This document shows positions 13,026 through 31,410 of a DNA stretch of 64,000 nucleotides, one piece after another (the first letter of the stretch is position 1; each line of letters opens with the position of its first letter). Below the pieces are notes generated by a model. That model was not told the DNA's origin, ran no database searches, and saw only the letters and a list, made by a program, of their open reading frames with translations. The stretch lies in the IMG/VR virus record IMGVR_UViG_3300025117_000028, positions 1-64,000 of that record; one strand, given 5' to 3'. This stretch comes from a virus. A program made the translations under genes and the position numbers.

Positions 13026-13621
13026 CAATCCCTATTGTTTCAGAAACTAAGGCTCGTTATCATACTCTTTATACATTTGAGTGTGAAGAGATGGGGCCAA
13101 TTGTTTTTGCTCCTATGTCCATAAAAGACGTAGAGCAATATCTTTATATATCTAAAGTTTCTTATCCTATTGCTGCAGAATTAGAAGCAGAATTTTTATG
13201 TAAATATATTATAGAGCCAATTTTTACTATAGATAAGATAAAGCCACTTCCTTATGGAGAAACTAAAACCGTCTTCAATATCATGCTCTATCTTTCACAT
13301 CCTAGTGGAGTAAATGATATAATCAATAATATACAAATATATAGGAGCGTTTTTAAAAATAATCTCTTAGACCAAATGTTCTCCTTTATATGTCAGGCTT
13401 TTCCTGCGTATACGCCTGATACTTTAAAAGAAAAAAAATGGCCAGAATTAATTACGTTAATTACTATGGCAGAATTTATTAACGGAGACTTTGAGATTGT
13501 AACATCAGAAACAGCTAAACAAAAAAAACGCAAACCCATATCTGAAGAAAGGATAGTCACAGAAGATCCACGAGAGGAGTACTTAAAACAACATGGCCAA
13601 CAGACCGAGACATCATGCTGA
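13022..13621 (+). CDS. Putative second tail assembly chaperone
   Basis: This 199-residue, mostly helical protein follows the previous gene with a four-base overlap. Its own 3' end overlaps the giant downstream gene by 29 bases. It has an N-terminal strand segment (GPIVFAPMSIKDVEQYL), a central helical domain, and a W-P-E-L-I-T-L helix near residue 140, followed by a basic KKKRKP stretch and acidic tail. In many phages the second chaperone is made by frameshifting; here a separate start coupled by ATGA gives the same two-protein set. The role is inferred from size and position next to the tape-measure-like gene. Confidence 0.5.
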   Translation: MTIPIVSETKARYHTLYTFECEEMGPIVFAPMSIKDVEQYLYISKVSYPIAAELEAEFLCKYIIEPIFTIDKIKPLPYGETKTVFNIMLYLSHPSGVNDIINNIQIYRSVFKNNLLDQMFSFICQAFPAYTPDTLKEKKWPELITLITMAEFINGDFEIVTSETAKQKKRKPISEERIVTEDPREEYLKQHGQQTETSC

Positions 13622-16600
13622 AAGTATCATATCTCTCGATATTGAAACGACTGGTCTAACAGACGAATCTAGAATTTATGATATTGGTATTACCGATTAT
13701 GAAGGTCAATATTTATATCAAGAACGATTTGAAGGATCTTTCATAGAAGACGTTCTAAAGCGTCCAGACGAATATAAAACATCCCCCGAAATTTCGACCT
13801 ATGCACTACGCCATATCCAGCAAATAAAAGACATGGACAGTGCTGAAGCTCTTGCTTATGCTCGATCTTTAGAAGCAAGTGAGAGATTAGATCCATCTAA
13901 ATTATATGACACCCTCCAAGAAACTATGAGAGGGAAACAGTTATGGGTTTATAACCTTAACTTTGAACGTCGTCATATCTATCATAAAAGCGGTTTTGAT
14001 CTTGGCCATCCTAAATTCCGCGATACTCGAATCGAAGAGTTAAGAAGTAAAATAAAAACTGTTCCTACTCTTAGCGAAAATTTTGGCAATTATAGAAAAT
14101 TACTTGGTAGATATAGGAACTTATTAGCCCAAGGGACTCCTGGCGCTTTCGACTTAATGGAAATGGCCAAAGCAACTATGGCTGTTGCTATTGAAGAAAC
14201 GCATAAAGGTAGAGGGTTTTTCAAACAAAGCGCACTTGCTCTTCGTGGAGAAGATGTTGTTACTGGGTTATCTGCTGAAAATTTTGCTCAAGCACTAGAT
14301 TTTCTCAATCTTGAAGGTAGAGTAGGTGAAAGTCATATTGCTTCCATGTCTAAGACTAGCGATACTATTCTTAACGTTAAAATTCTAGATGTATTAATAG
14401 ACATTTCCGATGTAGTCTTTAACCCAAAAAAGAGTATTGCAGATTTACCTCTTGCTGGGAAAACACTTTTAAATATTTTAGGCAATTCGTATTTAGAAAA
14501 TAAACAAGAATCGATGCGGAAACAGATGTCTTCTCGATGGGAAGAATTCATGAGAGGACATCGTACTAATGAACTATTACAATTCGACAACCCCGTTGAT
14601 GCCTTAAGGGCTTATGGCCAAAAATCTTTACGCAATACAGGAATAACTGGGCAAGATGCTTTAATTGATAGGCTAATATATCAGACTAGAGAAGAGGCGC
14701 GCAAAAATTTAGCAACATATCATAAAACTCCTTTTACTTCTCAATGGAATCGTCTTTCTAAGCTTACTGGTTTAGAAGATAATCGTTTCATATCGAAAGG
14801 TTTTTCTTTACTAGAAGGTAATAAAAGAGTCGTTGCTGGTGTGGGGCTAGCAGGTTTAGTAGGGATGCCTGTATTAGGACTTCTTACAAGACAAGAAAAT
14901 ACCGCAAATACAGCTTCTTCAATTTTATCTATTGTAGGAATGGGAGGCGTAGGCGCGTGGGCCTTATCTAAATTTGCTCCTAACTGGGCACCATTAAGAG
15001 GAAAAGCCGCAGGTACAGCAGGATTAGTTGGTGCTGGATTGATGGCCGCTGGTGCTATTACTGGTTTCAGTTTCAATGCATTAAGAGACAATACAAAAGC
15101 CGCAGAAATGCGTCATGCATATACCGCTTTCGGATCAGGTTATGTAGGAATGGACCAAGACACTAGAACTGCTACCATGTCTAGTGGAAACTGGCCTAGT
15201 TATCTAATGACTGGTATAGGTTGGTATGCTTCTCCCTATATGAGAAATTTGATGCAAAAATTAATGAGATTCCCAATTATGCCTTTTGACATGATGGGTT
15301 TATCTTATCTAGAAACAGAGAAGGGAGAATATGCTCGTCGAGCAGGAAAGTCGATGGCAACATTGGGTGACTGGGCGCACAACTTAGCTCGGCGCATTGA
15401 ATTATCTCCTTCAACTTTAGGTATTGGACGAATTCTTCAATTAGGAACTTTGGCTAGCGGTGTTTCTTTATATGACACTACACATGTTATAGAAATTTTA
15501 GGGAAGCAAAACGAAAAAGATCTAATCAAATATTATTCAAAATTAGTAGGTAAAACCGAAAAACAATTTCTAGATATATTACGACAAACCGAAAGCACTA
15601 AACTCTTATATAAAAGAGGAGCTATATATGCCGGTGGAAAAAATGGTCTTCGAATTGGAGAAGCCCTAACTACCAACGTTACACTTTTACAGAATCATTA
15701 TTTAAAACCATCGCGCGCACAAATCTTAAACCGGTTAGAAACTGGAGCAGATATAGAATATGGGTATAGATCTAGTTTAATCCATGCATATACCAAACCT
15801 AGAGGTATTAATCTTAGAGACGAAGAGTTTGTTGCCTATCCTAAATTTCTAAGAGAAACGCGTCCATTTAGTTTTGGGGCAAAAAAATTCGCTAATTTTG
15901 AAGAAGCCAAAGAAGACTTCTTGAAAACCATGAAGCCTCTCTGGAGAGATTTTCGTCGCACTATGTCTCACTATGTTGGTCCATACTTTAATATTGCCGC
16001 AAGACGTGCTGCACTATTAGCTCAGACTCCATTTGCTTCAGTTGCGGAAATGTTACCAGAACCCATGCAAGATAAAGTATTGGGTAAATATAAAGAGATC
16101 ATTAACAAAATCAGACAGAAGTGGATTCCAGGATTGCCCAAATGGGGCTCTCCTTTTATAGCAGAAGAAGGTGGAGCCTTCACTAAGTTTGGAGCAAAAC
16201 TAGGGGCAAAATTAGGCATTCCTGTTCATGCTTTTGCACATTCTACTCCCGGAATTTTCTGGAGAATGAGTAAGAGTGTCGCTAGTTTAAGTTTACTTCC
16301 CTTTGCTTATAAGGCCATAGACGATTTAATGTATAACTTAGTAGGAGTTGGACCTACTCAAATATTAGCAACTGCTTCTGGCGGAATTAAAACGGCCTTT
16401 TCTGCCGTTTCAGATATTACCGGATTAACAGAAATAGCCAAGACGCAAGAAGAAGCAGGAGCCCCAACTGGACCAGGTGGATTCTTAAAATGGATGCTTG
16501 GAACTACTGGTACTGGAATGGTTGCCGGAGCTGCTATTGGAGCTGCAAAGAATTTTAAGACCGAACTAGCCGCTGAAGGACTTGAACGTTTAAAAGCCGT

Positions 16601-19600
16601 GAGAGGCAGTACTAAAGTTATTCAAAATGCAGCAGTTAAAGGGATGAAAATAGGCGGGTTAGCAGGACTATTATTAGGACTTCCTTTAGGATTAGGGTTC
16701 TTAGGATCAGATAAAACAGTTGGTGAACAGATTGACGAACTACAAGGAGATACAGAAGTCCCTGTAATGAAGGGTCGTTTTTGGCCAATGGGTCGTTCTC
16801 CATGGGAAGGAACTGGGGTTGATTATTTTGCTCCATCATGGGAAGCCGAGAGTTTTGATAGATCAAGGATTGCCAGTCTATATGGAGATTCCTTAAAAAA
16901 TGACTTCTTATTAAGAGCTTTCAAAGAGTCACCTATTTTAGGAGACTTCTATCGGCCTTACTATCTTGAAGAACTTCACCACGAAGATCGTCCATATTTC
17001 GTTACAGGACCCTCTGGAGAAGGTGCAGGGTTATGGGGATCTTTATATGAAATGTCACTAGGGCAGATAATTAAACCTACTCGTGATATGCATAGAGAAG
17101 CCTTTATAGGCTTACGAGGTTATGCTGGTGGTCCTACCGAAGAGTATGGCTACCCAACTGTTGGTGGCCAAAATTATTATGTTCCTTCAGGTGAAATTGA
17201 AGGTGAAACAATGACTCTCCCAGAAACAGTTTCTCAGTATAATGTCATTCCTCAATTAGGAGAAGCTTTATACGGAGCCACTGAATTAATGGGTTTACGC
17301 GGTTATATGTTTGCTTCTGCTTTCAGTACGGAACAACTAGGAGTCTCTGAGCCCATGGTTCCTTCTGCTAAGCAAATGGTAGGTAGAAGACTGTATTGGG
17401 ATAGGTCGATAGGTGACCCTTTCGCAACTGAATTTTACAGACGAGTAAACCCTCGATATAGAGCAGATTTACAATGGGCAAATCCCCTTAGAAATCAAAT
17501 GCCTGAATGGTTGCCGGGATGTTTTTTACCGGAAACAAAGATAGAAACAGATAGAGGGTTAATTTCAATAGAAGAAGTTCGGCAAACAGATATGCTGTAT
17601 ACGCATGTTGGTAGATACCGTAAAATTTTACGTTTTTATCAGCATTTTATTAATGATGATATAACTAAAATTCAACTGTTTGGCAATAACCTTTTTCCTA
17701 TCGAATGTACAAAAGAACATCCATTTTTAGCTATAAAAATAGATGGTTGCAAATATTATCGAGATAGAAGAAAAACATGTCAGCCACATAGTATTAGAGG
17801 AAATAAGCCTTGTAGATATTGCGTTAATAAAAATAAAAAATTTGAAGTTAATTGGATTAAAGCTAATGAATTAGAAAAAGGAGATGTCTTATTATATAAA
17901 ATTCCTATTTTAGATGAGTCTGTGAAACATATTTTTATATCAGACTTTGTAAAGAATATTTCATTTACGGATGACTCAATTAGAAGTGGATTGAGAGGAT
18001 CTTATAAGGTAATTCATAATAAAATTACCTTAGATTATAACTTTGGTTTTGTATGTGGACAATTTTTAGCGGAAGGTCACGCTTCTAAATATACTTTATA
18101 TTTCGCCCATCATATAAAAGAAGGAAATTATTCTGATGCAATTCAAAATTGGTTTACAAGTATTAATTTGCCAGGAAGTCGAGTAGATAAAACAACTTAT
18201 ATAGTAGATCAATTTTACAGTAGGGTGTTAGCTAATTTTTTTGGGCAAGAATTTGGAAAAAAAGAAAATAAAAAAATTCCTTCCTGGGTTTTTAAAAGTC
18301 CTGATGATTTTAAAAAAGGATTTTTAACTGGTTATTTAAATGGAGATGGGAGTCTTGGTGAAAATAATATTTCTGCCTTTACAATTTCTTTGCAGGTTTT
18401 TTATGGAATTGTTAAGTTACTAGCTTCTTATAAAATTCCTTTATCTTATTCATATATACGATACCAAAACAATAAAGATGGTTATTGTTTTGGATTTATT
18501 GTAGACAAATATTTTATATCTAATTTCCCAATTTTAAAAAATAAAGTTCTATTTTATAAACAAGAAACACATACAGCGAGACAAAGTTTTATCTTTAATG
18601 ATGAGTATATAGCCTTTAAAATAAAAAAGATTGAAAATATTAACTATGTTGGAAATGTATATAATTTTGAAACAGAAGAAGATAATAGTTATACAGTTAA
18701 TTTTATTAATGTTCATAATAGTAATTATTTCGAAAACTTTTTAGAAGGAGACATATATTCAAGTATTCCTAGAGGTGAAGAGCGTCTTCCTGGTGCTGGT
18801 TATGAACGTAGATATCCTGAAGTGACAGGATTAGATCCTGAACTATATCCTATGGCACATAAGTTAAGTATTCTAGGAGACACTGCTCTATGGAGTTCTG
18901 AATTCCGTGATGCTCGTCGAGCTATGGAAGATCTTTATGAAGAAGGAAGTTTAACAGATCATGAAAAAGCCATGTATGAAGAAACTATGGCTCAGGTTAA
19001 CCAGCAACAACAAAAAATTAACTTTAGAAGTGAAGAAGGTGGAGGTTTATTAGGAACTTATTATCGTACTATTACAGATATTGCGCGCGCGAATCCTTTA
19101 GAGCAGATACTTCCTTTTTCGCCCGCCCATAAATTCTTTGGTCCAATGGATGTTATTAGCCATTACAAAGAAAATGTAGTTTATGGTAATGCTTTTGCAC
19201 CTTGGAATACTCCCATTAGTAGTTTTATTTCTCCGGCTATAAACAAAGCAATGGATATAGTAGGGCTAGACCATATCCCAGATGAAGTAGAACAAGAACG
19301 TGCAATCAGTGAATATTTTGACAAATTAGAATATGTAAAATTTCAAGGACTAGCAAGACAAGCTGAGAAAAGAGGCGATGATAAAGGCGCCTCTCAATAT
19401 GCAAGAGAAGCCAGAAATACATTGGTTGGGCTAACGAATGAAGCCCCCTTATGGCAAATCATGAGTGCGTTACCCGCAAGAGAGAAACCATATTTTGAAG
19501 CTTTCACTCAGATTGAAGACTTAAGTGACCGAGCAGATATATTAGATTTAGTTCCAGAATATGTAGGTAGATCTCTACAACAACAATGGTATGGAGATGT

Positions 19601-20006
19601 ATCCGAACGGACCGAAGAAGATAAAATGGAAGAGTTATCTGCATTTTTCCGTGATTATAGATTGCCGGGTCCAGAATGGAGTGGGTGGAGTGACCAGATA
19701 AATCTTGATGATATTAAGCTTAAATACGTAGAGAATCATGGACTTAACGCTCATAACTTTGGAATATGGCAAGCACAAATTCAGGCCGCAAAACATAAAC
19801 CTTATTTAGACGAATTGGCAGATAGTTTAGGCCATACTGCTTTATTGAGTAGTAGTCCCGATGTTAGACAAGTTATGGAAAATCTAGGACAATATAATTA
19901 TAATAGTTATGAGATGTCAGCGTTGGCATCTAATGTAACAAATTACACTATATATAAAGATAACACACAAAAAGTTAAAAGACTTTTAGACGATTTAGGA
20001 GAATAA
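13593..20006 (+). CDS. Giant tape-measure/ejected virion protein with DnaQ-like N-terminus and an intein
   Basis: The precursor is 2137 residues; removal of the intein (residues 1310-1709) would leave 1737. The N-terminus looks like a DEDD 3'-5' exonuclease. SLDIETTGL gives the Exo I pair D16/E18, VYNLNFERR is at the Exo II place (about 119-127), and SHIASM at 247-252 may be a degenerate Exo III. Hydrophobic Gly/Ala segments suitable for membrane insertion lie near residues 414-433, 443-462, 473-497, 970-985 and 1017-1038. The rest is long, helical and Arg/Glu-rich. The position, after the chaperones and before the hub, is that of the tape measure, and the membrane segments fit a protein released into the cell envelope. 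ATG 13593 overlaps the upstream gene by 29 bases; GAGGAG lies 13 bases upstream, rather far. Whether it sets tail length, is ejected, or both is not known. Confidence 0.65.
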   Translation: MANRPRHHAESIISLDIETTGLTDESRIYDIGITDYEGQYLYQERFEGSFIEDVLKRPDEYKTSPEISTYALRHIQQIKDMDSAEALAYARSLEASERLDPSKLYDTLQETMRGKQLWVYNLNFERRHIYHKSGFDLGHPKFRDTRIEELRSKIKTVPTLSENFGNYRKLLGRYRNLLAQGTPGAFDLMEMAKATMAVAIEETHKGRGFFKQSALALRGEDVVTGLSAENFAQALDFLNLEGRVGESHIASMSKTSDTILNVKILDVLIDISDVVFNPKKSIADLPLAGKTLLNILGNSYLENKQESMRKQMSSRWEEFMRGHRTNELLQFDNPVDALRAYGQKSLRNTGITGQDALIDRLIYQTREEARKNLATYHKTPFTSQWNRLSKLTGLEDNRFISKGFSLLEGNKRVVAGVGLAGLVGMPVLGLLTRQENTANTASSILSIVGMGGVGAWALSKFAPNWAPLRGKAAGTAGLVGAGLMAAGAITGFSFNALRDNTKAAEMRHAYTAFGSGYVGMDQDTRTATMSSGNWPSYLMTGIGWYASPYMRNLMQKLMRFPIMPFDMMGLSYLETEKGEYARRAGKSMATLGDWAHNLARRIELSPSTLGIGRILQLGTLASGVSLYDTTHVIEILGKQNEKDLIKYYSKLVGKTEKQFLDILRQTESTKLLYKRGAIYAGGKNGLRIGEALTTNVTLLQNHYLKPSRAQILNRLETGADIEYGYRSSLIHAYTKPRGINLRDEEFVAYPKFLRETRPFSFGAKKFANFEEAKEDFLKTMKPLWRDFRRTMSHYVGPYFNIAARRAALLAQTPFASVAEMLPEPMQDKVLGKYKEIINKIRQKWIPGLPKWGSPFIAEEGGAFTKFGAKLGAKLGIPVHAFAHSTPGIFWRMSKSVASLSLLPFAYKAIDDLMYNLVGVGPTQILATASGGIKTAFSAVSDITGLTEIAKTQEEAGAPTGPGGFLKWMLGTTGTGMVAGAAIGAAKNFKTELAAEGLERLKAVRGSTKVIQNAAVKGMKIGGLAGLLLGLPLGLGFLGSDKTVGEQIDELQGDTEVPVMKGRFWPMGRSPWEGTGVDYFAPSWEAESFDRSRIASLYGDSLKNDFLLRAFKESPILGDFYRPYYLEELHHEDRPYFVTGPSGEGAGLWGSLYEMSLGQIIKPTRDMHREAFIGLRGYAGGPTEEYGYPTVGGQNYYVPSGEIEGETMTLPETVSQYNVIPQLGEALYGATELMGLRGYMFASAFSTEQLGVSEPMVPSAKQMVGRRLYWDRSIGDPFATEFYRRVNPRYRADLQWANPLRNQMPEWLPGCFLPETKIETDRGLISIEEVRQTDMLYTHVGRYRKILRFYQHFINDDITKIQLFGNNLFPIECTKEHPFLAIKIDGCKYYRDRRKTCQPHSIRGNKPCRYCVNKNKKFEVNWIKANELEKGDVLLYKIPILDESVKHIFISDFVKNISFTDDSIRSGLRGSYKVIHNKITLDYNFGFVCGQFLAEGHASKYTLYFAHHIKEGNYSDAIQNWFTSINLPGSRVDKTTYIVDQFYSRVLANFFGQEFGKKENKKIPSWVFKSPDDFKKGFLTGYLNGDGSLGENNISAFTISLQVFYGIVKLLASYKIPLSYSYIRYQNNKDGYCFGFIVDKYFISNFPILKNKVLFYKQETHTARQSFIFNDEYIAFKIKKIENINYVGNVYNFETEEDNSYTVNFINVHNSNYFENFLEGDIYSSIPRGEERLPGAGYERRYPEVTGLDPELYPMAHKLSILGDTALWSSEFRDARRAMEDLYEEGSLTDHEKAMYEETMAQVNQQQQKINFRSEEGGGLLGTYYRTITDIARANPLEQILPFSPAHKFFGPMDVISHYKENVVYGNAFAPWNTPISSFISPAINKAMDIVGLDHIPDEVEQERAISEYFDKLEYVKFQGLARQAEKRGDDKGASQYAREARNTLVGLTNEAPLWQIMSALPAREKPYFEAFTQIEDLSDRADILDLVPEYVGRSLQQQWYGDVSERTEEDKMEELSAFFRDYRLPGPEWSGWSDQINLDDIKLKYVENHGLNAHNFGIWQAQIQAAKHKPYLDELADSLGHTALLSSSPDVRQVMENLGQYNYNSYEMSALASNVTNYTIYKDNTQKVKRLLDDLGE
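17520..18719 (+). other. Intein with LAGLIDADG-type homing endonuclease domain
   Basis: A 400-residue in-frame insertion inside the giant protein. It begins with Cys (CFLPETKIETDRG, block A) after Gly. It has a block B signature CTKEHPFLA with the T-x2-H pattern, a WIKANELEKGDVLLY splicing-domain strand, and ends VYNFETEEDNSYTV...FINVHN followed by Ser as the +1 residue. All catalytic positions (Cys1, block B His, penultimate His, terminal Asn, Ser+1) are present, so splicing should work. Between the splicing halves are two dodecapeptide-like motifs, FVCGQFLAEG and LTGYLNGDGSL, typical of a LAGLIDADG endonuclease; the acidic residue is E in the first and D in the second. Four extra cysteines (17740-17825 region) may bind zinc. 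The DNA is visibly richer in A/T than its flanks, suggesting separate origin. Confidence 0.93.
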
Positions 20007-20009
20007 TTT

Positions 20010-23000
20010 ATGCCGCGTTTAGGAGAAGACTCCTTAATTCCAAGTTGGGCATTTTGGGGAGGAATGGGTGCTGTTGGATTGACGTATGGCGTTAGGGCAT
20101 GGAATCAACTTGCTAATGCTCCAGGAGCAGATCTCGCTTTCCGTGGTTTGTCTTGGAGTGCCAGAAATATAGAACATAATCAACGCGCAGCAACTAATGT
20201 AGAACAGTTGTTTAAGCGTTCTAAGTATGTTAATGAAGGAATAACAAAACGCAGTTTATTGTCCGAATCAAAACCGTTAGGAATTGTAGAATTCGATGAA
20301 GTTTTAAAAGGTTTTGAAACCCGAGGATTAGTTACAGCAGAAGCAAGAACTAAATTTTTAGAAGGTATCCGTCCTGCCTTTGAGAGAGCGGTAGTTGTTA
20401 CACATGCCGAGACACAATTACCTGTCGCCTTGGATATTACATATAGAGCAGGTCAAAAAACCACTAGTTTTATGTTACCTATTTTACAGAGTCAGAAAGC
20501 TTTAACTGGCGATGTAACTCTTTCTCCTGATATCTTATCTGTATTGGCAGTAAGAAAAAGGGAAATGGGTTATATTCCCGGAGCCATGTATACAGCCATG
20601 CATGTTGCTGATCCTAGGCGAGCCTTAACTGGGTTATCAAGGAATGAAACTGTGGCGACTGATTTAAGGCGCGTTAATGTTATGCAATATTTATTTGAGT
20701 CCTTTTCGCAAGAAGGAGTGATGAAAAATATTTTATCAGGAGAGATAGATCCATCTAAATATTTAGAAGGATTTGAAGAACGAACCTTTTATGCTCCACT
20801 TACAGATTATAGAGCAGGAGCTTCAGAGGTGGCACATTCTGGAGAAGCCTTCAAGAGAAGTAGACAGACAATTATCATGAATCAGTTCTTGCAAACACCC
20901 GGAACAAGAGAATTAAAAAGTTATGCAACAGAAACATCTCCGGGTATTTTTGAGTTAACTGAGGGAGGTAGCCGACAGTTAACCATTGCACTTCCAGAAC
21001 TGTTACCTGGTAGTTCTTCTTCTCCTACTGCTGGAACCGTAATGTTACCCGAGCAACAAGCTGAAGTTAGAAAATTGTTTTATGGTTCTGCTTATAATGT
21101 AGACATGAGACAAGTCATGAGACCCAATACTGTTACTCTCGATCCTTCGTCTAAATATTATTCTTCGTTAAGCAAGGGAAGAAAATTATTTCCTGGTATT
21201 GCTACTCAAATAGGAAAAGAGGCAGTACCAATTAGTGTCAGATCTCTTTTTATAGATTCAGAGAAAATGACGGCGCATTTAGAAAGTTTAGGGTTTCCCA
21301 AGGGTTTCACCTTGGCCAAAGAAGAAATGTTCATGCCCTATGAGATGGGGAGAGCTATTCGGATTAATGGTCCTCGTAAAACCTATAGAGTTAAACAAGC
21401 ATTGTTAAATCAAGATCTACAAAATGTTTTATTAGAGTTAGAGAAATCTACGATTGACGGCAGACCTGGAGTAAATTGGGAAAATCCAGAAGGAGTACAA
21501 GCCCAGTTAAAAAAATGGGCAGAATCAGCCACTAAAGAAAAAAGATTAGTAACCTTTGGTGCTGGCGTAGAATTAGGAGTATCTCCGAATATTGTTGAAA
21601 AAGGAAATCCTGAAATAGTTAGGTTAAATAGAAGTGGTAAGAAACATATTTTAGAAAATATTAGATTATTTAAAGGAGCTAGAGGCGAAGGATATGTAGA
21701 AGCAACTTTTAAATCTCAATGGAAATTGTCCGAAGCAATAACTAAAATGTTTTTAAGCGAAAAGAAACGTGTCCGTCCAATGAGAGACATTGATGTCGCC
21801 TTAATTATGCTAGCAGAAAAACATCAGGGTTACACAGCTGGCTTATATAAAGAGAAGTTATTAGAAGATTTACCCGGATTAGAAGCTACAGGAATAGTGA
21901 AAAATTTTAGAGAATTAGTAGAGCTAGAATTTCGAACTACTTTCGGAAGAGGTCAATTGAGGGCACTGACAACGACTCACCCATTTGAAAAGTTTTTTAA
22001 AGGGGTACCGAAGACTGCAACTTTACATGATGTTTTAACTCAAAAAGGAGGAGCACTAAAATCTGCTAATATACAGTCCATGATGCTGGCTTTGTTAGAC
22101 CTAAATATATCCTCTAAAAAGAAAGGTGAGATTAAACGAATTATACAGGATCCTAATTTAGACGATCTTCAAAAGATGAATAAAGTTAGTCCAATGGTTA
22201 CTGTTGGAGATATTATAAACCCCGAATTTACTCATTCTTTTATTCCTGATCAACCGGATATTTATTATGCCGGAGGGAAAGTTCGATATACAAAAGACTT
22301 ATATGCAATGATACAATCTGGTCCAGAAAGAGAAGCACTACAACCATTCTTAGAAGATATAAGAAGTAGAGCAGTTGGAGCAGAAGTATCTGCAGAAGCC
22401 GCTTCTATATTAGAACGTACTCGTTCTATGGCTTCAACAGTATTACATAAAACAATTACAGGAGAAGTTTTGCCGTTAGAAGAATTAGCGCGTTTCGGAA
22501 ATAATTTAAATTGGGATAAATTGCAGGCAGTCTCTCAGCGGCATGGTGGTGCTTCTTGGTTAGACCTAGGAAATTTTGTGAATATAGAAGAAATGGGTGG
22601 GTCAATACGATATGTAGAATTGCCTACTTCTCCTGCCTTTGCTAATGAGATGAGAACAATGTTACAGAATGACGAAGAAATTGCGCAAAGTCTTTTAAAC
22701 TCTGTAAAGCGTTTAATTAACTCAGCTGGAGGAAAAGATATTAAATCAGCTCTTCAGGGTTATTTGGAAGAACAAAAGTCTTTGGCTATTTCTGCAAAAG
22801 GTGAAATTCAAGGATCTGTATATTTAACAGCTAGTTCTACTATACAAGAAAAAAATCCTTTTACGGTTGCAATTCCAGAGAAATATATTAAACGCATGCA
22901 TAAAGAAATAGGAACCACCTTAGATGAAGTTACTGGAGAATTTTTAGGAATGGCCGCTCGTGATCCTAATATTTCTTATTCTCGTAACGTCCCCGTAAGA

Positions 23001-24317
23001 ATTGTTTCGACTGAATCATTCTTGAGAAAGTCGATTGGAAATAAGTTCTATAATCTGATTCCAATTGGAGAAGAAGTATATATGTCTCCAATGTTGAAAG
23101 CATTGCTCGGAGCAGATAGTGACGGTGATATTATCAAAATAATGTTAGCTGGAAGTGAACTTAGTAAAACTTCTTTAGATAATGTCATAACCGGAGCAGA
23201 AGCAGCCTATGAGCAATTTTCTAAAAACTTAAGTGCAAATGTTGTAGAAGGAATTGGTACTAAATTTGGTTATGCTGCGGCATTTTTCGAGAAGGCATAT
23301 GGCCTATTAAAATCAGGAACTAATGTAAATCCATATCTATTCGAAACATTAGATGATTTAATTCAATCCGACGCAACTAGAAAGTTATTGGAAAAGGTTG
23401 GTATTGGTAAAGCCCATGGAGCTATGAACGCGGTAAGAACTTCATTACGTTTATCTTCTGAAACATCTTATAAGGCTGTTCATGCTCTTGCGACAACAGT
23501 GTTATTAGAAGAACAAATTATTAAAGCAAAATATGCAAAAGGTAGTCTTGCGGAAATTAAAAGATTAGCGACAGGCGGTTATTTGGCCGAAATGATGGAC
23601 GAAGCTATAGAAGCGGGTGATCCTCAACAGTTTGTTAATACTGCGTATGGTATCTTAGGTATAGACCCTGAAACTTTTGCAGATAAAAAAGTTTTAAGTA
23701 ACATTACAGAAGGTGCAGAAGAGATGATAAGAACTTACTCTAAATTTAGAGGAACCGACGAACTTCAGGCTGCTATTTTATTGAATCAAACCCATGGAGA
23801 TAGAGTTAAGGTTGAAGATTTCTTAAATGTTTTGCAAAAGCAAAAAAAAGTAGCCTCCCAATATTATGGTACAATACAAGAAGCAACAATGAATTATAAG
23901 GCTCTAGGTCAAGACATACCTGAACGTTTTGGTACTATGATCAATAAATTTGGAAAGTTATCTACTGGGGCTAAAGTTGGGTTAGCCGGAGGTGCATTTG
24001 CGGCTCTTGCTGGTGCTTCTTCTTTGATTGGTCAAATGAAAGCTTCGACTGCTGTTGCTGAAATTGATATAGATAAAAGTCGTAAATTTGAAGACGCATA
24101 TAAGATTTCTCGACTTCAAAAAAATGCTTATGCTTCTAGAGTTCAAGGAGAAGGTGGAAAATTCAGTTCTCTTAGTGCAGTCATAGATGAAGCATTCCCA
24201 GTAAAAGATAGAATCGCAAACATCAATAGAAGTTACGGTAATAATGTAAACGTAAGTGTATTCGATTATTCGCGCAATGTAGATATAGATATGTTACAAC
24301 ATCAAATGGAACAATAA
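20010..24317 (+). CDS. Large virion-module protein with RNA polymerase-like double-psi barrel motif
   Basis: This 1435-residue protein starts three bases after the giant upstream gene. Around residues 930-1045 it has an order of motifs resembling the catalytic barrel of RNA polymerase beta' and single-chain relatives such as YonO and QDE-1. These are a KG-E-x-Q-G-S-V opening strand, a hydrophobic T-V-A-I-P strand, a SRNVPVR segment where beta' has R-x-P-T-L-H, and GADSDGD at 1035-1040. The last places three Asp (D1036, D1038, D1040) at exactly the spacing of the metal-binding ADFDGD loop, with S in place of F. Upstream, residues about 550-600 are basic and strand-rich and might be the second barrel; this is less clear. 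An N-terminal hydrophobic stretch (about 10-30) and a C-terminal Gly/Ala segment could touch membrane. Gene position suggests a virion-packaged protein. Activity is unproven, and a tape-measure partner with a chance motif remains possible. Confidence 0.55.
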   Translation: MPRLGEDSLIPSWAFWGGMGAVGLTYGVRAWNQLANAPGADLAFRGLSWSARNIEHNQRAATNVEQLFKRSKYVNEGITKRSLLSESKPLGIVEFDEVLKGFETRGLVTAEARTKFLEGIRPAFERAVVVTHAETQLPVALDITYRAGQKTTSFMLPILQSQKALTGDVTLSPDILSVLAVRKREMGYIPGAMYTAMHVADPRRALTGLSRNETVATDLRRVNVMQYLFESFSQEGVMKNILSGEIDPSKYLEGFEERTFYAPLTDYRAGASEVAHSGEAFKRSRQTIIMNQFLQTPGTRELKSYATETSPGIFELTEGGSRQLTIALPELLPGSSSSPTAGTVMLPEQQAEVRKLFYGSAYNVDMRQVMRPNTVTLDPSSKYYSSLSKGRKLFPGIATQIGKEAVPISVRSLFIDSEKMTAHLESLGFPKGFTLAKEEMFMPYEMGRAIRINGPRKTYRVKQALLNQDLQNVLLELEKSTIDGRPGVNWENPEGVQAQLKKWAESATKEKRLVTFGAGVELGVSPNIVEKGNPEIVRLNRSGKKHILENIRLFKGARGEGYVEATFKSQWKLSEAITKMFLSEKKRVRPMRDIDVALIMLAEKHQGYTAGLYKEKLLEDLPGLEATGIVKNFRELVELEFRTTFGRGQLRALTTTHPFEKFFKGVPKTATLHDVLTQKGGALKSANIQSMMLALLDLNISSKKKGEIKRIIQDPNLDDLQKMNKVSPMVTVGDIINPEFTHSFIPDQPDIYYAGGKVRYTKDLYAMIQSGPEREALQPFLEDIRSRAVGAEVSAEAASILERTRSMASTVLHKTITGEVLPLEELARFGNNLNWDKLQAVSQRHGGASWLDLGNFVNIEEMGGSIRYVELPTSPAFANEMRTMLQNDEEIAQSLLNSVKRLINSAGGKDIKSALQGYLEEQKSLAISAKGEIQGSVYLTASSTIQEKNPFTVAIPEKYIKRMHKEIGTTLDEVTGEFLGMAARDPNISYSRNVPVRIVSTESFLRKSIGNKFYNLIPIGEEVYMSPMLKALLGADSDGDIIKIMLAGSELSKTSLDNVITGAEAAYEQFSKNLSANVVEGIGTKFGYAAAFFEKAYGLLKSGTNVNPYLFETLDDLIQSDATRKLLEKVGIGKAHGAMNAVRTSLRLSSETSYKAVHALATTVLLEEQIIKAKYAKGSLAEIKRLATGGYLAEMMDEAIEAGDPQQFVNTAYGILGIDPETFADKKVLSNITEGAEEMIRTYSKFRGTDELQAAILLNQTHGDRVKVEDFLNVLQKQKKVASQYYGTIQEATMNYKALGQDIPERFGTMINKFGKLSTGAKVGLAGGAFAALAGASSLIGQMKASTAVAEIDIDKSRKFEDAYKISRLQKNAYASRVQGEGGKFSSLSAVIDEAFPVKDRIANINRSYGNNVNVSVFDYSRNVDIDMLQHQMEQ

Positions 24318-24318
24318 G

Positions 24319-27300
24319 ATGGCAGTTATCAATTCTCCAGGAATAATTCAAATCAATGATATTCACGTTACAATTCCTCCTACTCAGATAGAAGTGAATG
24401 TAATGTATCGAAATGAAAAAGTTGATGTCCTGCGTTCTCAAAGTGAATTATATTTAAGATCAGGGTATGGGACTGTCTTTTTTAGATTCTCGTTAGTTTT
24501 CCAAGATACAAAAGCCGTCAATGAAGAATTGATTCCGTTGGTTATACAATCTAATAAAACTCCCTTCTTCTATATTTCCAATGAAGCTTTGCGGACAGAA
24601 CTAGTTCCTTACTTAATTCCCAATATGACAGAAACAACCGATAGTGTACTTTATCAATTGTCTATTGTTGGTCGATTGTTAAATTTAAAATACTCTTCTC
24701 ATCCTCAGGCTCCTGGAGTTATTGTCGCTGATTTTAGTTTTTCATTATTTAATTACCGTCCTTTTATGAAACAGTGGCTTTATAAAACTCATTGGCCTAC
24801 CCCAGATGAAGTAGTCAATGCAGTTCGAACTATTGAAAATAGTTTTGAGCGTCCCACGAAACTAGTTCCTTCTACTTCTGTACAGATAGGTCTTGGAGTT
24901 AATGGTTCTAATCCTGCTGGCTTAACAGCATTTACAAGATCACCTGGTTCTGACTTAATGGCAAATATTGAACCTTATCAAAGAGATAAGGTTCAACTCA
25001 TTTTCAGAGACAATATAAAAGATACCAGAAAAAAACTTAAAGAAATTATTGATGATCCAAAAATATATGGAAATCAAACTACCAATCCTGTTCTCTCTGA
25101 TTGGTGGAAACATTATTACATGCATAAAACTTATCTTCAGGACGAACATACTAATGAACCGTTAAATCATATTGATCAAATCGAAAACAAATTAACTATC
25201 CATTATAAAGAATTTGCAAACCTCAAAGAAGTAGGTTTTACTCCGCGTTTTGAAGAAAATTCCAATACTGAAGTCTCACGTCCCGACCTGGATATAACTA
25301 AAATAGATTGGCGTTTACCACAATTCCAAGATCTATTAATTACGGCAATGGAAAATGCTTGTAAGTTTAAAGTAGAAGACCCAAGGCCATCAACACTAAC
25401 TGTTGATCAATCTGGTCACAACATAAAACCAACAGGACGACCTCTTATCCGAGAATTGAGTAAAAAGTGGAATACAAATGGAAAACAATGGATAAACCTT
25501 GTTAAAAAAATCTTTGGGTCAGACCCAAGATTAATTCCTACATTTCTTTTTATGATCATGCATGAATCTAGTAGGCCGACTGATAAAGGTGATCGATTTC
25601 TCGTGAATAAAAAAGAAGCAAAGTCATTAGGTTCTGAGTATAACCAAGCTTTTGGATTATTACAAGTAACTGAGATACATAAAAAAGAATTAGCTAAAGC
25701 AAAAATCATAAGTAGTGTTGAAAATTTTTATAGAGAAATATTAGAGCCTGAAACTAATCTTAAAGCAGCTTTATTGGTATATAAGCAGGCTAAGAATACT
25801 TTAAATCCTTGGCAACCTAAAGAGTCTGTTGCGATTTATATGAGACATTTCGATAATGAAGTTAAAGAACTTCTTTCTAGTACTAAACTGGTACAGAAAG
25901 AAACTGTTCAAAAAAAGACTGTCCAGGACTTTAGTAATGAACTATTTGGTGATACAAATGATATAAACATGACCAGTGATGGAATCAAGATCTCTGGAAA
26001 TGAGTTGTCCAATAATATAAATAATATCGAAATCCTTTATGAAGACTTTTACTCCACTAGAGACAAGGCCCTAAAACGAATCAATGAAGATTATGCAGAT
26101 AGTTATGATCAAGGATGGAGATCTGTCTATGAAATGATGACTAATCAAGAATATTTAAGAGAAAGAGGAAATACTTCCTTAAGAAATATTTTTTATAAAG
26201 ATCATAGTTGGGAAATGCCTCCTTCTCTTGTTCTTGAAAGTGTTGGAGTTTCTATTGACAACAATAATTTAACTATTCCTATTGCTGGAGCTTTACTGGC
26301 TACATCTCAACATTTAACAACTCCTTCTGCTAGATTTGACTTAGGAATACATGCTGTTCCAGAATTTGAGGAAGGAGAATTAATTCTCAACCAAGCACAG
26401 ATAGAGTTGAATAACATTTTGAAATTAGTTCAAGAACAGAATATTTCTTATAAATATGTGAACAAGAAAAATTCTTTAGCTATATCTAACTCTATCCTAC
26501 AAGTTGCAAATGTCAGTCAACAAGGGGAAGAAGAAGGATATAATTGGGATCATGTAGGCAGAGTTCCAGTTGTAATAGACAGTATTAATATTATTAGTGA
26601 TCAAAGAAGTCCAAATACTTTTATTTTAAATATTGTGGGCGCTTTTAATAGAACACAATTTGAAGAAGTAGAAAAAATAGAAAACTTTAACCTTTCTGTT
26701 GAAGAATTGGTATCTGAAATATGTCCTCTTCTCATACAGGATGTAACAAATATTGTTAAGAGTAGATATAAGAATGAGACAACTCCTTTTGATATTTTTT
26801 GGGATGTTGCCTTTTGGAAAGCAATGAGCAATAAATTTAAACTTCCTGAGAAATCTAAATATTCACAATTTCTTCCAGATATATCTGGAGATTATACAAC
26901 AACCGAAGAAGAAGCAATACAGTTAATGGGTTCTATCTTTCTTTATTTTTTCAGTTTGGGACCTTTTAAAATTCTTGAAGATTTAACAAGTGACACTCTT
27001 GTTGAACTTGACTTATATCTTGGAGTAGGAGGTCTTATTGCAACTATTGGGACTGGAGGAATAGCAGCAATTATAGGATTATTATTATCTATTGCTTCAA
27101 TGGCTACAAGCGTTCATGAATATCTTCAAAATTTTCAGACTAAAGAAGACCTAAAATCATATATGCAATTTTTAGATAAAGGGTTTATTAAATACCCCAT
27201 TAGAGATCATAAAGATTTTTTAGTAAATTTAGGTTTATCAAGCAACTTAATAGACTCAAGATCTGAAGATCCAATTATGGTTGAAGACGCCCTGACACAC

Positions 27301-30138
27301 CATAAATATGACATTATTCGTTATGCGATTAGAAACTATTCTCGTATTACACCTAAAGCTCGTGTAATGCTCGAAGCCTTTAGTTCACGCAAGCAGTTAG
27401 GAACTAAAAGTTGTTATCCTGATATGACATTGCCTCCAAATCCTTTCTTAGAAGAATTATATAGAGATTCGGAATTTGGAGATTTTTTTACAGAAGTAAT
27501 GCCTCCTTATTTTTATTTAGTAGGATCTGGAAATCAGAAGAGTGTTATCGAAAAGAAAATTGAAGAGTATCTATCTGATGCCGCAGAAGTTATTAATGAT
27601 AGTGAAGAGACACAAACCAAATTAAAACGTATTCAAGGAAATACAAGTTTATCTCTTGATCCTGAAATGCATGCAAGTAGATTATACGAACAAGATAAAG
27701 AGAAGAAATTAACAACTAAAGATGTAACTTTACAATTATATTCTTTTGAAAACGCTAAAGAATGGATAAAAACTTTAAAAGAAGATCTAACGAATGAATG
27801 TTATATAAAATCTTCTCCACAACGTATGGCTCCGACTTATAAGGTTTATTTCAAAGAGAGAACGTCCGACAAATTTTATTTTAATTTCTTTGATGAATTT
27901 TTTGGTGTTAATGCCATTCGTCGTATTTCTATTACTTCTACAAGAAAGTTCCCCGCTAGTTATGCAGTCATAGAGATATTAAATACTCAAGGCCATTTAA
28001 ATAATAAAGTATTTTGGGGAGCAGATGGAGCTAGAAGTGATGGAGGACATGTAGTCGAGTCTTCATTGATTCGAAACATGAAGAACTATAATACTTCTAT
28101 TACTAATACCTTATTAAAAGATGGAACAGATATTCAAATTAGACTTGGTTATGCTTCTGATCCTGAAGATTTAGAAACAGTATTTAATGGCCAAATTTTT
28201 TCTATTGAAGGAGAAGACGTTCTAACTATCAAGTGTTATTCATATGGTTATGAATTAGCAAGCAAAGAATACAATCCTTATGATGGCCATGAAGATGATG
28301 AAGACTATGATGAAACTTCTGAATTATTAGAATGGTGTTTGACTAGACCAGAAGTAATGCACTTTGGACGTAAAGAACTATTAGATTTCGTGGTCCCAAA
28401 AGGCTTTGGCCTCAATCTGAGACAACGTCTTCTTGGAGGTTTGCAGACAGACCGCGAAGGGAAGATAAGTCAAACAACTTTTAGATTTATTAGTTATCCT
28501 CAAAATGATAATGTATTCGTTGAAGAAATTAGAACAAAATATAGTAGATGGAGTCCGACAACATGGTTTGCAATGGCAGTTCGAGATGGTTCAAGTCTAG
28601 ACTTAGAGTCCTCAGTTCTTTCTATCAAATTCGAAGCTTTTAAAGAATGGTTTAAAGAGTTAGTTGTTCCTTGGAGTGAAGAAATATTTTTAGGACCATA
28701 TATTCCATTCAAACAAACTCTGTGGGATATCATTCAAGAAATGACGCTAAGACATTGCGGAACTATTGCTTCAGTAGTCCCCTACGACGACTACGTCACA
28801 TTGTTTTTTGGAAAACCTAGTTTATTCTATTTTTATAGATCTAGGGATTTATATGATTATATAAGTAACATAGAACATAACAACTTAAAAGAGAGAATAA
28901 CTGGTTCACTTGAAAAAACCAAGAAACAGTTTAGGAGATATCATTATGTGGATAGTATGTCTCATATTGTCAATAATAATATTCGGGCCGATTATTCTGG
29001 CACTTTTACAGAGATAACTGTTTTAACTGCTACTAAAAGAGATGATACAGCGTCGTTTAATGCGGATTATAATGACGAGACAGATGATACTAAAGATGTT
29101 ATTAATGATCCAGGAGATTTTGACCAAATTGCTCCCATGAGATTAAATAGAAATATAGTAGACAACTATATACGTGGGGCTACGATGGGTTTCCCTAATG
29201 TCAGGAATCAGACTATTGGAGAAAGATATGCCTCTTCTTTATTAGCTTTAAGTGCTCATGAGTTATATAAAGGGACTTTAACTCTAATTGGAAATGAAAC
29301 AATAAAGCCCTGGGATTATATGTATTTATACGACTCCTATAATGATATGTACGGAGCCATTCAGGTACGAGATGTTACTCACGTTATTTCCCCGGAAACT
29401 GGATTCGTAACCGAAATTGTTCCAGACATGATTGCTGTAACAAATGACTATGTAACAACTGCTTTGAAAGATGCAATGCTAAATGTTCTTAACCAAATAT
29501 GGTTAGATTCATATATGGAAGAAGCAAAAAGTTGGCAAACTTTGTCATGGGTACATGCCGAACCGGTTGTGAAATCAATAGAGTATGCCACAACTGCTAC
29601 GTTGGCTGTAAAAGCAGGATCATGGATAAGGACAGGAGCTACAAAAGCAGGAAAATGGGCAGAAGGCAAACTCTTGTCGCAGTCAAGAACTAATCTTCTT
29701 TACGGACCTGCTAGACAGGCAGTTGGTCAACACTTGAATGAAGTATCTGAAATGATAGGAAAGGTTGCAGCAAAAGCTCCAAGACTAACAAAGATAGCAG
29801 GTACTCTTGGACGTATCCCAATTAAACATCCGGTTGCAATGATTACAGCTGGTGTTGTAATGGTAGTCTTTGCAGGGGCACTAATAGATTTAGGCAATGA
29901 AGAAAAGACAGCATTTCCTGTCGTTGTTTCACCTTTGATTAAAAATGGAAAACCCTATGTAATAGGTGTTAATGGGTATGATATGAATACATTCCATCAA
30001 CACCTTTCTAAGAAGGTCCAAAAGTTTATAAAAAAATATAATCTGACTGAAGATTTAGCCGACGAATTAATGAGTATCTCTGTGATAGGTATAAGCAATG
30101 ATACATTAACTCAAGTACTTGAAACCCTAGGAAATTAA
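24319..30138 (+). CDS. Giant baseplate hub protein with embedded SLT lytic transglycosylase
   Basis: This 1939-residue protein starts right after the previous stop. The N-terminal 150 residues are a beta-rich tail-protein domain, and a related copy seems to lie near residues 640-790. Residues about 395-500 form a soluble lytic transglycosylase: the catalytic glutamate E416 in MIMHESSR, then the AFGLLQV motif and a PETNLKAALLVYKQA helix. A hydrophobic Gly/Ile-rich segment at about 899-930 could span a membrane. Residues about 1170-1700 match the GpD/gp27-like hub: RRISITSTRKFPASYAVIEI, then FNGQIFSIEGEDVLTIKCYS, and later a TKRDDT region. The C-terminus adds another hydrophobic stretch near 1855-1875. 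It would sit at the tube end, hold the spike and degrade peptidoglycan during injection. The combination explains its size, about five times a simple hub. Confidence 0.8.
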   Translation: MAVINSPGIIQINDIHVTIPPTQIEVNVMYRNEKVDVLRSQSELYLRSGYGTVFFRFSLVFQDTKAVNEELIPLVIQSNKTPFFYISNEALRTELVPYLIPNMTETTDSVLYQLSIVGRLLNLKYSSHPQAPGVIVADFSFSLFNYRPFMKQWLYKTHWPTPDEVVNAVRTIENSFERPTKLVPSTSVQIGLGVNGSNPAGLTAFTRSPGSDLMANIEPYQRDKVQLIFRDNIKDTRKKLKEIIDDPKIYGNQTTNPVLSDWWKHYYMHKTYLQDEHTNEPLNHIDQIENKLTIHYKEFANLKEVGFTPRFEENSNTEVSRPDLDITKIDWRLPQFQDLLITAMENACKFKVEDPRPSTLTVDQSGHNIKPTGRPLIRELSKKWNTNGKQWINLVKKIFGSDPRLIPTFLFMIMHESSRPTDKGDRFLVNKKEAKSLGSEYNQAFGLLQVTEIHKKELAKAKIISSVENFYREILEPETNLKAALLVYKQAKNTLNPWQPKESVAIYMRHFDNEVKELLSSTKLVQKETVQKKTVQDFSNELFGDTNDINMTSDGIKISGNELSNNINNIEILYEDFYSTRDKALKRINEDYADSYDQGWRSVYEMMTNQEYLRERGNTSLRNIFYKDHSWEMPPSLVLESVGVSIDNNNLTIPIAGALLATSQHLTTPSARFDLGIHAVPEFEEGELILNQAQIELNNILKLVQEQNISYKYVNKKNSLAISNSILQVANVSQQGEEEGYNWDHVGRVPVVIDSINIISDQRSPNTFILNIVGAFNRTQFEEVEKIENFNLSVEELVSEICPLLIQDVTNIVKSRYKNETTPFDIFWDVAFWKAMSNKFKLPEKSKYSQFLPDISGDYTTTEEEAIQLMGSIFLYFFSLGPFKILEDLTSDTLVELDLYLGVGGLIATIGTGGIAAIIGLLLSIASMATSVHEYLQNFQTKEDLKSYMQFLDKGFIKYPIRDHKDFLVNLGLSSNLIDSRSEDPIMVEDALTHHKYDIIRYAIRNYSRITPKARVMLEAFSSRKQLGTKSCYPDMTLPPNPFLEELYRDSEFGDFFTEVMPPYFYLVGSGNQKSVIEKKIEEYLSDAAEVINDSEETQTKLKRIQGNTSLSLDPEMHASRLYEQDKEKKLTTKDVTLQLYSFENAKEWIKTLKEDLTNECYIKSSPQRMAPTYKVYFKERTSDKFYFNFFDEFFGVNAIRRISITSTRKFPASYAVIEILNTQGHLNNKVFWGADGARSDGGHVVESSLIRNMKNYNTSITNTLLKDGTDIQIRLGYASDPEDLETVFNGQIFSIEGEDVLTIKCYSYGYELASKEYNPYDGHEDDEDYDETSELLEWCLTRPEVMHFGRKELLDFVVPKGFGLNLRQRLLGGLQTDREGKISQTTFRFISYPQNDNVFVEEIRTKYSRWSPTTWFAMAVRDGSSLDLESSVLSIKFEAFKEWFKELVVPWSEEIFLGPYIPFKQTLWDIIQEMTLRHCGTIASVVPYDDYVTLFFGKPSLFYFYRSRDLYDYISNIEHNNLKERITGSLEKTKKQFRRYHYVDSMSHIVNNNIRADYSGTFTEITVLTATKRDDTASFNADYNDETDDTKDVINDPGDFDQIAPMRLNRNIVDNYIRGATMGFPNVRNQTIGERYASSLLALSAHELYKGTLTLIGNETIKPWDYMYLYDSYNDMYGAIQVRDVTHVISPETGFVTEIVPDMIAVTNDYVTTALKDAMLNVLNQIWLDSYMEEAKSWQTLSWVHAEPVVKSIEYATTATLAVKAGSWIRTGATKAGKWAEGKLLSQSRTNLLYGPARQAVGQHLNEVSEMIGKVAAKAPRLTKIAGTLGRIPIKHPVAMITAGVVMVVFAGALIDLGNEEKTAFPVVVSPLIKNGKPYVIGVNGYDMNTFHQHLSKKVQKFIKKYNLTEDLADELMSISVIGISNDTLTQVLETLGN

Positions 30139-30971: not shown

Positions 30972-31408
30972 GGAACAAGATTTACAATGATTTGTATTTC
31001 TCCGGTCTTGGAGATTTAGCAATTGAGAATGGAGATCTCAAAGATACAGTAGGCGAGGACTATTTAAGATCTGATTATCAAGAACTACATACTATTATGT
31101 CTTCTACTCTAGGAGACTGGGGGATAAGTCCAAGCCTTGGAGCCAACTTAGATTCATTCTTAGGAAGACCATTAACAAAAAGTACTCTGCAAGATATAGA
31201 GTTAAATATAAAAAATGCAATATTCAAAGATTCTATCTTTGCTCTTAATGATGTTTTAGTCGGAGTTATCCCTATTTCAGATCATGAAATATTTGTTAGA
31301 ATTGATTTAGTGGTCGCGCCTTCTTTATTAAATTCTCCTCAAGATGAAACATATAAATTCTCTTTCGTATATGACAGTCAATCTAAAACTCAAATATTCC
31401 TGGAGTGA
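30968..31408 (+). CDS. Baseplate wedge protein, gp25-like
   Basis: This 146-residue protein resembles the GPW/gp25 family in size and pattern. It has a leading strand DLAIENGDLKDTVG, a DYLRSDYQELHTIMSSTLGDW helix region, a short loop, then LTKSTLQDIELNIKNAIFKD and a strand pair ending VRIDLVV. Family members join the sheath to the baseplate wedge and share a fold with type VI secretion TssE. The position just before the gpJ/gp47-like gene is the standard one. It is coupled to its upstream neighbour by a four-base overlap. Confidence 0.75.
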   Translation: MRNKIYNDLYFSGLGDLAIENGDLKDTVGEDYLRSDYQELHTIMSSTLGDWGISPSLGANLDSFLGRPLTKSTLQDIELNIKNAIFKDSIFALNDVLVGVIPISDHEIFVRIDLVVAPSLLNSPQDETYKFSFVYDSQSKTQIFLE

Positions 31409-31410
31409 CA

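Follow-up and report, generated by a model that had tools for sequence, protein, structure and literature searches.

Virion RNA polymerases (vRNAPs), including one fused to a tape measure protein, are already known. In the report on Thermus phage P23-45 (PMC10770324), a tape-measure-fused vRNAP (gp96) is described that is present in virions and extends RNA in vitro, with a second RNA polymerase (RNAP) following it. Phage N4 has a giant ejected RNAP, gp50, together with the conduit proteins gp51 and gp52 (PMC12633501), and for Bacillus phage 0305phi8-36 the published annotation assigns orf146 as tape measure, "mainly" from tail length, and calls only orf99, a separate YonO-like enzyme, an RNAP (PMC2147016, PMC7824862). 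Here we analyzed the first 64 kb (the window) of the 190,284-bp virus record IMGVR_UViG_3300025117_000028, in which three consecutive giant genes, P0001, P0002 and P0003, had been read from sequence alone as a set of enzymes ejected into the host. We consider it likely that the product of the middle gene, P0002, is a divergent single-polypeptide two-barrel RNAP encoded in a tail-core operon between P0001, a conserved virion protein, and P0003, a baseplate hub, and that it is ejected and transcribes the first phage genes, with another candidate RNAP, P0004, acting later.

On its own, P0002 gave nothing significant with phmmer against PDB, with Pfam, with PHROGs or in tblastn against phages up to E = 0.1, and Vibrio records annotated "virion RNA polymerase" that appeared at E = 8 in a tblastn listing extended to E = 10 were dismissed as chance matches. 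Scans of viral contigs seeded with P0002 and of genome contigs with alignment A5 likewise yielded no relative. Since P0002 alone matched nothing significant, we gathered the loci of relatives through the conserved domain of P0001 and then read the next gene. DxDxD was present in 48 of the 52 distinct complete middle proteins, and DxDGD in 19. As a neighbor-gene control, DxDxD was found in 9/52 of the upstream P0001 orthologues and in 11/47 of the downstream hubs (Fisher p, uncorrected for relatedness, 2e-15 for the middle gene versus upstream and 8e-13 versus downstream).

In an alignment of P0002 with 27 relatives forming a window-like clade (9 to 18% identity to P0002), invariance was confined to the columns of D1036, D1038 and D1040, and R984-x-P986 was nearly invariant across the same 28 sequences. 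A second, KLEB-like clade shows the same motif order as the window-like clade, RYPT...DxDGD...SKHG, and profile-profile comparison aligned the two clades over 410 columns (99.3%, E = 7e-21), with the RxP, DxDxD and K(H) motifs in register. The KLEB-clade profile (A8) gave a co-linear match at RxPT...DxDGD to the beta' of the phiKZ non-virion RNAP (nvRNAP; E = 0.0019), while the A7 profile, which includes P0002, gave a correctly registered match to bacterial beta' (E = 0.22). With E values up to 10 allowed, Pfam Rpb1_2 matched three of the 14 members (best, 7.6e-4); the Pfam RdRP model gave no match in three relatives, an uninformative result, as the controls were also blank. In the KLEB-like clade, the lysines of the double-psi beta-barrel termed DPBB-B are conserved (K1354 in 15/15 sequences, K1391 in 13/15) and are candidates for an active-site role.

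Predicted structures point in the same direction. An AlphaFold2 model of a KLEB-clade fragment, with a predicted local distance difference test score (pLDDT) of 67, matched beta/Rpb2 over residues 12-421 (Z 15.7, 307 residues, 3.7 Å), and in a Foldseek search against PDB all 50 top hits of this model were RNAP largest subunits (best E, 4e-6). The model thus matches both beta/Rpb2 and largest subunits, and in that clade both barrels are therefore predicted to lie in a single chain. The modeled fragment of P0002 itself is mostly of low confidence, but it has blocks up to residue 1070 with pLDDT mostly 65-91, and RNAP largest subunits again made up its 50 best Foldseek hits in PDB (best E, 2.7e-4). 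The catalytic block (model residues 551-710) matched Rpb1 (VIA) with Z 11.3 and 2.2 Å over 111 residues, so that P0002 combines Rpb1/beta' fold matches with an invariant triad, as expected of a beta'-type barrel with a metal-binding DxDxD. The beta-type match, of the Rpb2 kind, comes from the KLEB-like clade, the upstream half of P0002 being modeled too poorly. A BFVD search with the KLEB-clade model also retrieved an uncharacterized protein of Acinetobacter phage ME3 (E = 1.9e-10). The second segment of that protein has 802 residues and is compatible with the 1603-aa middle protein of ME3, a match made by length and not by accession. In computational terms, the family has both the fold and the catalytic signature of an RNAP, and that the middle gene encodes an RNAP, as the sequence-only reading had suspected, is strongly supported by motif invariance, profiles and predicted folds, which point to the two-barrel kind.

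The setting of the gene is that of a tail-core operon. The three open reading frames (ORFs; 2137, 1435 and 1939 aa) lie in an uninterrupted plus-strand gene run, with the tail sheath gene upstream and a baseplate wedge gene downstream, and the matches of these two support the contractile tail that had been proposed. The 1-3 base spacing reported earlier was reproduced (3 nt between P0001 and P0002, 1 nt between P0002 and P0003), and the preceding gene overlaps P0001 by 29 nt, a feature missing from that description. Across the region, promoter-like sites (59 versus 65.4 +/- 9.1 in shuffled sequence) and terminator-like sites (10 versus 10.0 +/- 2.9) stayed at chance level, in agreement with the claim that no promoter separates the genes; repeated intergenic 8-mers, taken as candidate phage promoters, were only A/T-rich and ribosome-binding-like words. 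By tblastn, P0001 and P0003 match phage ME3 (E = 3e-28 for P0001; 1e-22 for P0003, to gp037), Bacillus phage KLEB27-3 (1e-11 and 3e-19) and Moorella phage MTATph1 (5e-13 and 2e-22), the P0001 orthologues being gp035 in ME3 and CDS0026 in MTATph1. The annotated order in all three phages equals that of the window: sheath, tail/head structural genes, P0001, middle gene and hub. In the ME3 record, homology is stated to the virion protein and the hub of 0305phi8-36, and in the KLEB27-3 record gp031, gp033 and gp034 carry the label structural protein. By these computed matches of gene order and hub homology, the trio is conserved in the 0305phi8-36/ME3/KLEB27-3/MTATph1 lineage.

The expectation that no other RNAP gene would be found probably fails. 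Among the ORFs that were read in the remainder of the record, P0004 (1007 aa) is the only other one with an RNAP-like DxDGD; a further DxDGD, in the sheath protein, is not of the RNAP-like kind. An orthologue in ME3 (E = 2e-17) retains DxDGD and a GIKH motif, so that computation places a second DxDGD gene both here and in ME3. The P0004 stretch RNPVIWPGQ resembles the RdRP/YonO family; RNAPs of the YonO/QDE-1 kind have DxDGD, RNPxxxPG and KH motifs. P0004 matched no Pfam model, and HHalign found no significant match between it and the vRNAP profiles. A structural hint comes from a single BFVD hit of the KLEB-clade model, a second ME3 protein of 798 aa (E = 1.1e-6) that equals gp152 in length, this being the basis of the match rather than an accession. 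P0004 is a candidate nvRNAP, perhaps of an ancestry other than that of P0002, with which it would be paired, and a pair of virion and non-virion RNAPs, as in P23-45, is the best reading by analogy. Separately, we observed that the ME3 orthologue (gp152-gp154) is split, just before the DxDGD part, by an insert bearing an endonuclease.

Of the parallels drawn earlier, the one to crAss-like phages stood: gp66 of phi14:2, compared here by description and not by sequence, is likewise a single-polypeptide two-barrel virion RNAP, in a different virion type. The parallel to the T7 core is replaced by a closer one, the tape-measure-linked RNAP of P23-45. Its gp96 and the non-virion RNAP gp64 resemble our system in that a two-barrel RNAP is encoded in the tail-core region, either at the tape measure or beside it, and a second RNAP elsewhere, but in P23-45 the RNAP occupies the N-terminal part of a single 5002-aa tape measure, whereas the window has a contractile tail and a separate RNAP gene before the hub; moreover, the two P23-45 RNAPs cluster together, while no relation is seen between P0002-type and P0004 sequences. 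Comparison of the vRNAP profiles with gp96 in HHalign gave no significant match, and no relation beyond DxDxD was detected. Phages of the phiKZ type also have an RNAP pair, and their nvRNAP beta' has the same RxPT...DxDGD order, but their enzymes are multisubunit, in contrast to the beta-like and beta'-like barrels predicted here in one chain. N4 gp50 is alike in its working, as a giant ejected RNAP with conduit proteins, but belongs to the unrelated T7-like polymerase family. Of the same lineage are ME3 gp035-037 with gp152/154, which share gene order, a DxDxD middle protein and the P0004 orthologue, and 0305phi8-36 orf145-147 with orf99, set beside the window by published annotation and not by orf146 sequence; they differ in that their middle gene is annotated as tape measure or hypothetical.

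An RNAP gene at the position of the tail length ruler, next to the gene for a putative wall-opening protein, suggests that the phage is likely to bring a transcription enzyme of its own into the host cell, and by analogy with P23-45, crAss-like phages and N4, the most economical interpretation is that of a virion RNAP serving early transcription. After sheath contraction, the hub tip with its transglycosylase-like domain would thin the wall, and the hydrophobic segments of P0001 may help to form a conduit. P0002, located in the tail lumen or the capsid, would then exit the virion before or together with the DNA and transcribe the first genes, and P0004, made after entry from the other arm of the genome, would take over later transcription. 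We infer packaging, ejection, activity, promoter choice, timing and the division of labor between P0002 and P0004.

It is possible, if doubtful, that P0002 is mainly the tail tape measure with a fused RNAP domain, as in P23-45 gp96, and measures the tail, acting as an RNAP only after delivery. Besides that precedent, its gene lies directly before the hub gene and soon after chaperonin-like genes, orf146 received this role by length in 0305phi8-36, and middle proteins are mostly of 1390-3100 aa, with DxDxD distant from the N terminus. However, an RNAP core would need about half of P0002, the two relatives without the motif have a middle protein of 745-805 aa while their P0001 stays at 1100-1291 aa, and the hydrophobic segments typical of tape measures sit in P0001 (at the standard threshold, residues 413-431 and 1020-1038 outside the intein described below). 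P0001 is itself a candidate, from its sequence, for tape measure or membrane conduit, and for the former role an equal or better one than P0002, though the position of P0002 fits orf146. That P0002 is instead a structural tail protein whose RNAP fold has decayed and is catalytically dead seems unlikely; the sequence divergence is extreme, and most members of the ME3-like clade lack the DxDGD glycine, but three metal-binding aspartates as the sole invariant residues in 28 sequences are unexpected of a dead fold, and DSDGD is intact in P0002.

As the presence of P0002 in virions is, for this phage, deduced by analogy, the protein might also be an RNAP made and used late only, its operon position being incidental. 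We judge this quite improbable, since in the intact loci examined the gene lies between those of the conserved virion protein and the hub, KLEB27-3 gp034 bears a structural-protein annotation, and P0004 already offers a separate RNAP candidate in the other arm. A chance DxDxD in a protein that is no RNAP would agree with the lack of significant pairwise similarity of P0002 to PDB or phage-collection proteins, but it is contradicted by the fold searches and, given also the family-wide invariance, the neighbor-gene controls and the profile matches, very improbable. Several points do weigh against P0002 as an ejected RNAP. Its full model is poor (overall mean pLDDT, 49), and its N-terminal half, a poorly modeled region, matched nothing; counterparts of the KLEB-clade K1354 and K1391 are not securely located in the window clade; and the DxDxD statistics leave shared ancestry uncorrected. 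Middle genes without DxDxD occur in loci L014 and L054 (perhaps also L076), and the enzyme is therefore dispensable in some relatives. Finally, ejection is argued wholly by analogy, and P0002 has no clear membrane segment at the standard threshold, with a borderline stretch near residues 1322-1340.

In the literature outside the supplementary survey of PMC10770324 and most subscription journals, we found no report of a two-barrel RNAP at the middle-gene position in the 0305phi8-36-like contractile-tail lineage. We lean, by a little, toward the broader view that this widespread lineage (0305phi8-36/ME3/KLEB27-3-like; 48 distinct loci) has a virion RNAP mislabeled as tape measure or hypothetical protein, that this enzyme is delivered along with interchangeable nucleases and a hub that cleaves the wall, and that its partner is a non-virion RNAP from another ancestry. 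If so, phage-driven early transcription would be general in a large-phage lineage whose hosts differ as widely as Bacillus, Moorella and Acinetobacter, what was named the "tape measure" in 2007 would receive a new annotation, and a tail-core-tied RNAP as in P23-45 would not be confined to thermophilic siphoviruses. Very divergent two-barrel RNAPs would also be added to the material on the origins of transcription enzymes. The cultured phages ME3, KLEB27-3 and 0305phi8-36 permit direct tests.

Table 1. Features of the RNAP locus and its surroundings (window positions unless marked as genome positions)
Feature	Position	Strand	Evidence
Tail sheath protein	5352..9614	+	PHROG 16991, E 3.4e-48
P0001, conserved virion protein of 0305phi8-36-like lineage	13593..20006	+	tblastn; alignments A1, A4, A5; hydropathy
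P0001 N-terminal DnaQ/DEDD-exonuclease-like domain (LDIETTGL; YNLNFERR; SKTSD)	13593..14387	+	Pfam RNase_H_2
P0001 intein with LAGLIDADG domain, residues 1310-1709 (C1310 to N1709, next Ser)	17520..18719	+	Pfam Intein_splicing, Hint_2, LAGLIDADG_3
P0002, predicted single-polypeptide two-barrel RNAP, putative virion RNAP	20010..24317	+	Family profiles, motif invariance, fold matches
P0002 residues 931-1090, beta'-type double-psi beta-barrel block	22800..23279	+	AlphaFold2 block, fold match, triad
P0002 R984-x-P986	22959-22967	+	Nearly invariant in 28 sequences
P0002 catalytic-type D1036-S-D1038-G-D1040	23115-23129	+	Triad invariant in 28 sequences
P0003, baseplate hub (T4 gp27-like) carrying a transglycosylase-like domain and a hydrophobic C-terminal segment	24319..30138	+	tblastn
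P0003 residues 432-496, SLT-transglycosylase-like stretch (AFGLLQVTE ... NLKAALLVY)	25612..25806	+	Pfam SLT
Baseplate wedge subunit	31405..32670	+	PHROG 6, E 1e-25
P0004, second RNAP candidate	genome 128085-131108	-	DxDGD, ME3 orthologue

The flanking proteins fit their proposed roles to differing degrees. For P0003, the hub assignment holds by homology, since its match, ME3 gp037, is annotated as homologous to the 0305phi8-36 hub; the transglycosylase part stays below the curated cutoff of Pfam SLT (E = 0.001, 19.1 bits versus 21.3), and a domain of 0305phi8-36 gp147 has been described as a transglycosylase (PMC2147016). At the standard threshold P0003 has two hydrophobic regions (residues 907-925 and 1833-1856), as many as P0001, and shuffled sequences often yield one or two such windows; with none in P0002, the statement that all three proteins carry hydrophobic segments does not hold. 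The exonuclease-like character of P0001 is retained as a weak DnaQ-like N terminus, which falls below the RNase_H_2 cutoff (E = 0.016, 15.6 bits versus 22) and has no PDB match. The DEDD set is incomplete, Exo II having E for D and Exo III an unusual spacing, and DIET, NxxFE and TSD are partly retained in one aligned relative, L033. This relative shares the DnaQ-like domain, which is absent from most P0001 proteins read in the window clade, and many KLEB-clade middle proteins, the presumed RNAPs, bear an exonuclease-like domain at their own N terminus. The idea that the exonuclease is a constant member of an ejected three-enzyme set was accordingly rejected; because nuclease domains vary between relatives, the constant set is P0001, RNAP and hub.

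P0001 is also an intein hot spot in this lineage, as judged from sequence comparison. The window intein, which the sequence-only reading lacked, spans 400 residues, and homologues align precisely across it. In KLEB27-3, an insert that contains a homing-endonuclease-like ORF (gp032) breaks up the P0001 gene close to RNQMPxW, a conserved motif, and the window intein and this probable intron thus share nearly one site. Intein-like inserts at a second common site, after KGRWWE.G, were seen in five P0001 orthologues (L016, L021, L033, L073 and L075), and that of L033 (L033:4124-7000) has, by eye, an extra N-terminal RecB/Cas4-like stretch (GHIDLI, DIKT) before its DnaQ-like domain.

Other loci varied in the middle gene and hub. 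In MTATph1 (L004:22539-24026), the middle gene is apparently broken by a transposase gene and its protein lacks DxDGD; the downstream ORF CDS0031 matches the C terminus of KLEB27-3 gp034. The short, DxDxD-less middle genes of L014 and L054 (745-805 aa) are possible natural RNAP-less cases. A staphylococcal-nuclease-like motif has been reported for the BtI1 hub (PMC2147016), and we observed VxDGDT/NDGDT, of that kind, in the hubs KLEB27-3 gp035, ME3 gp037 and MTATph1 CDS0032.

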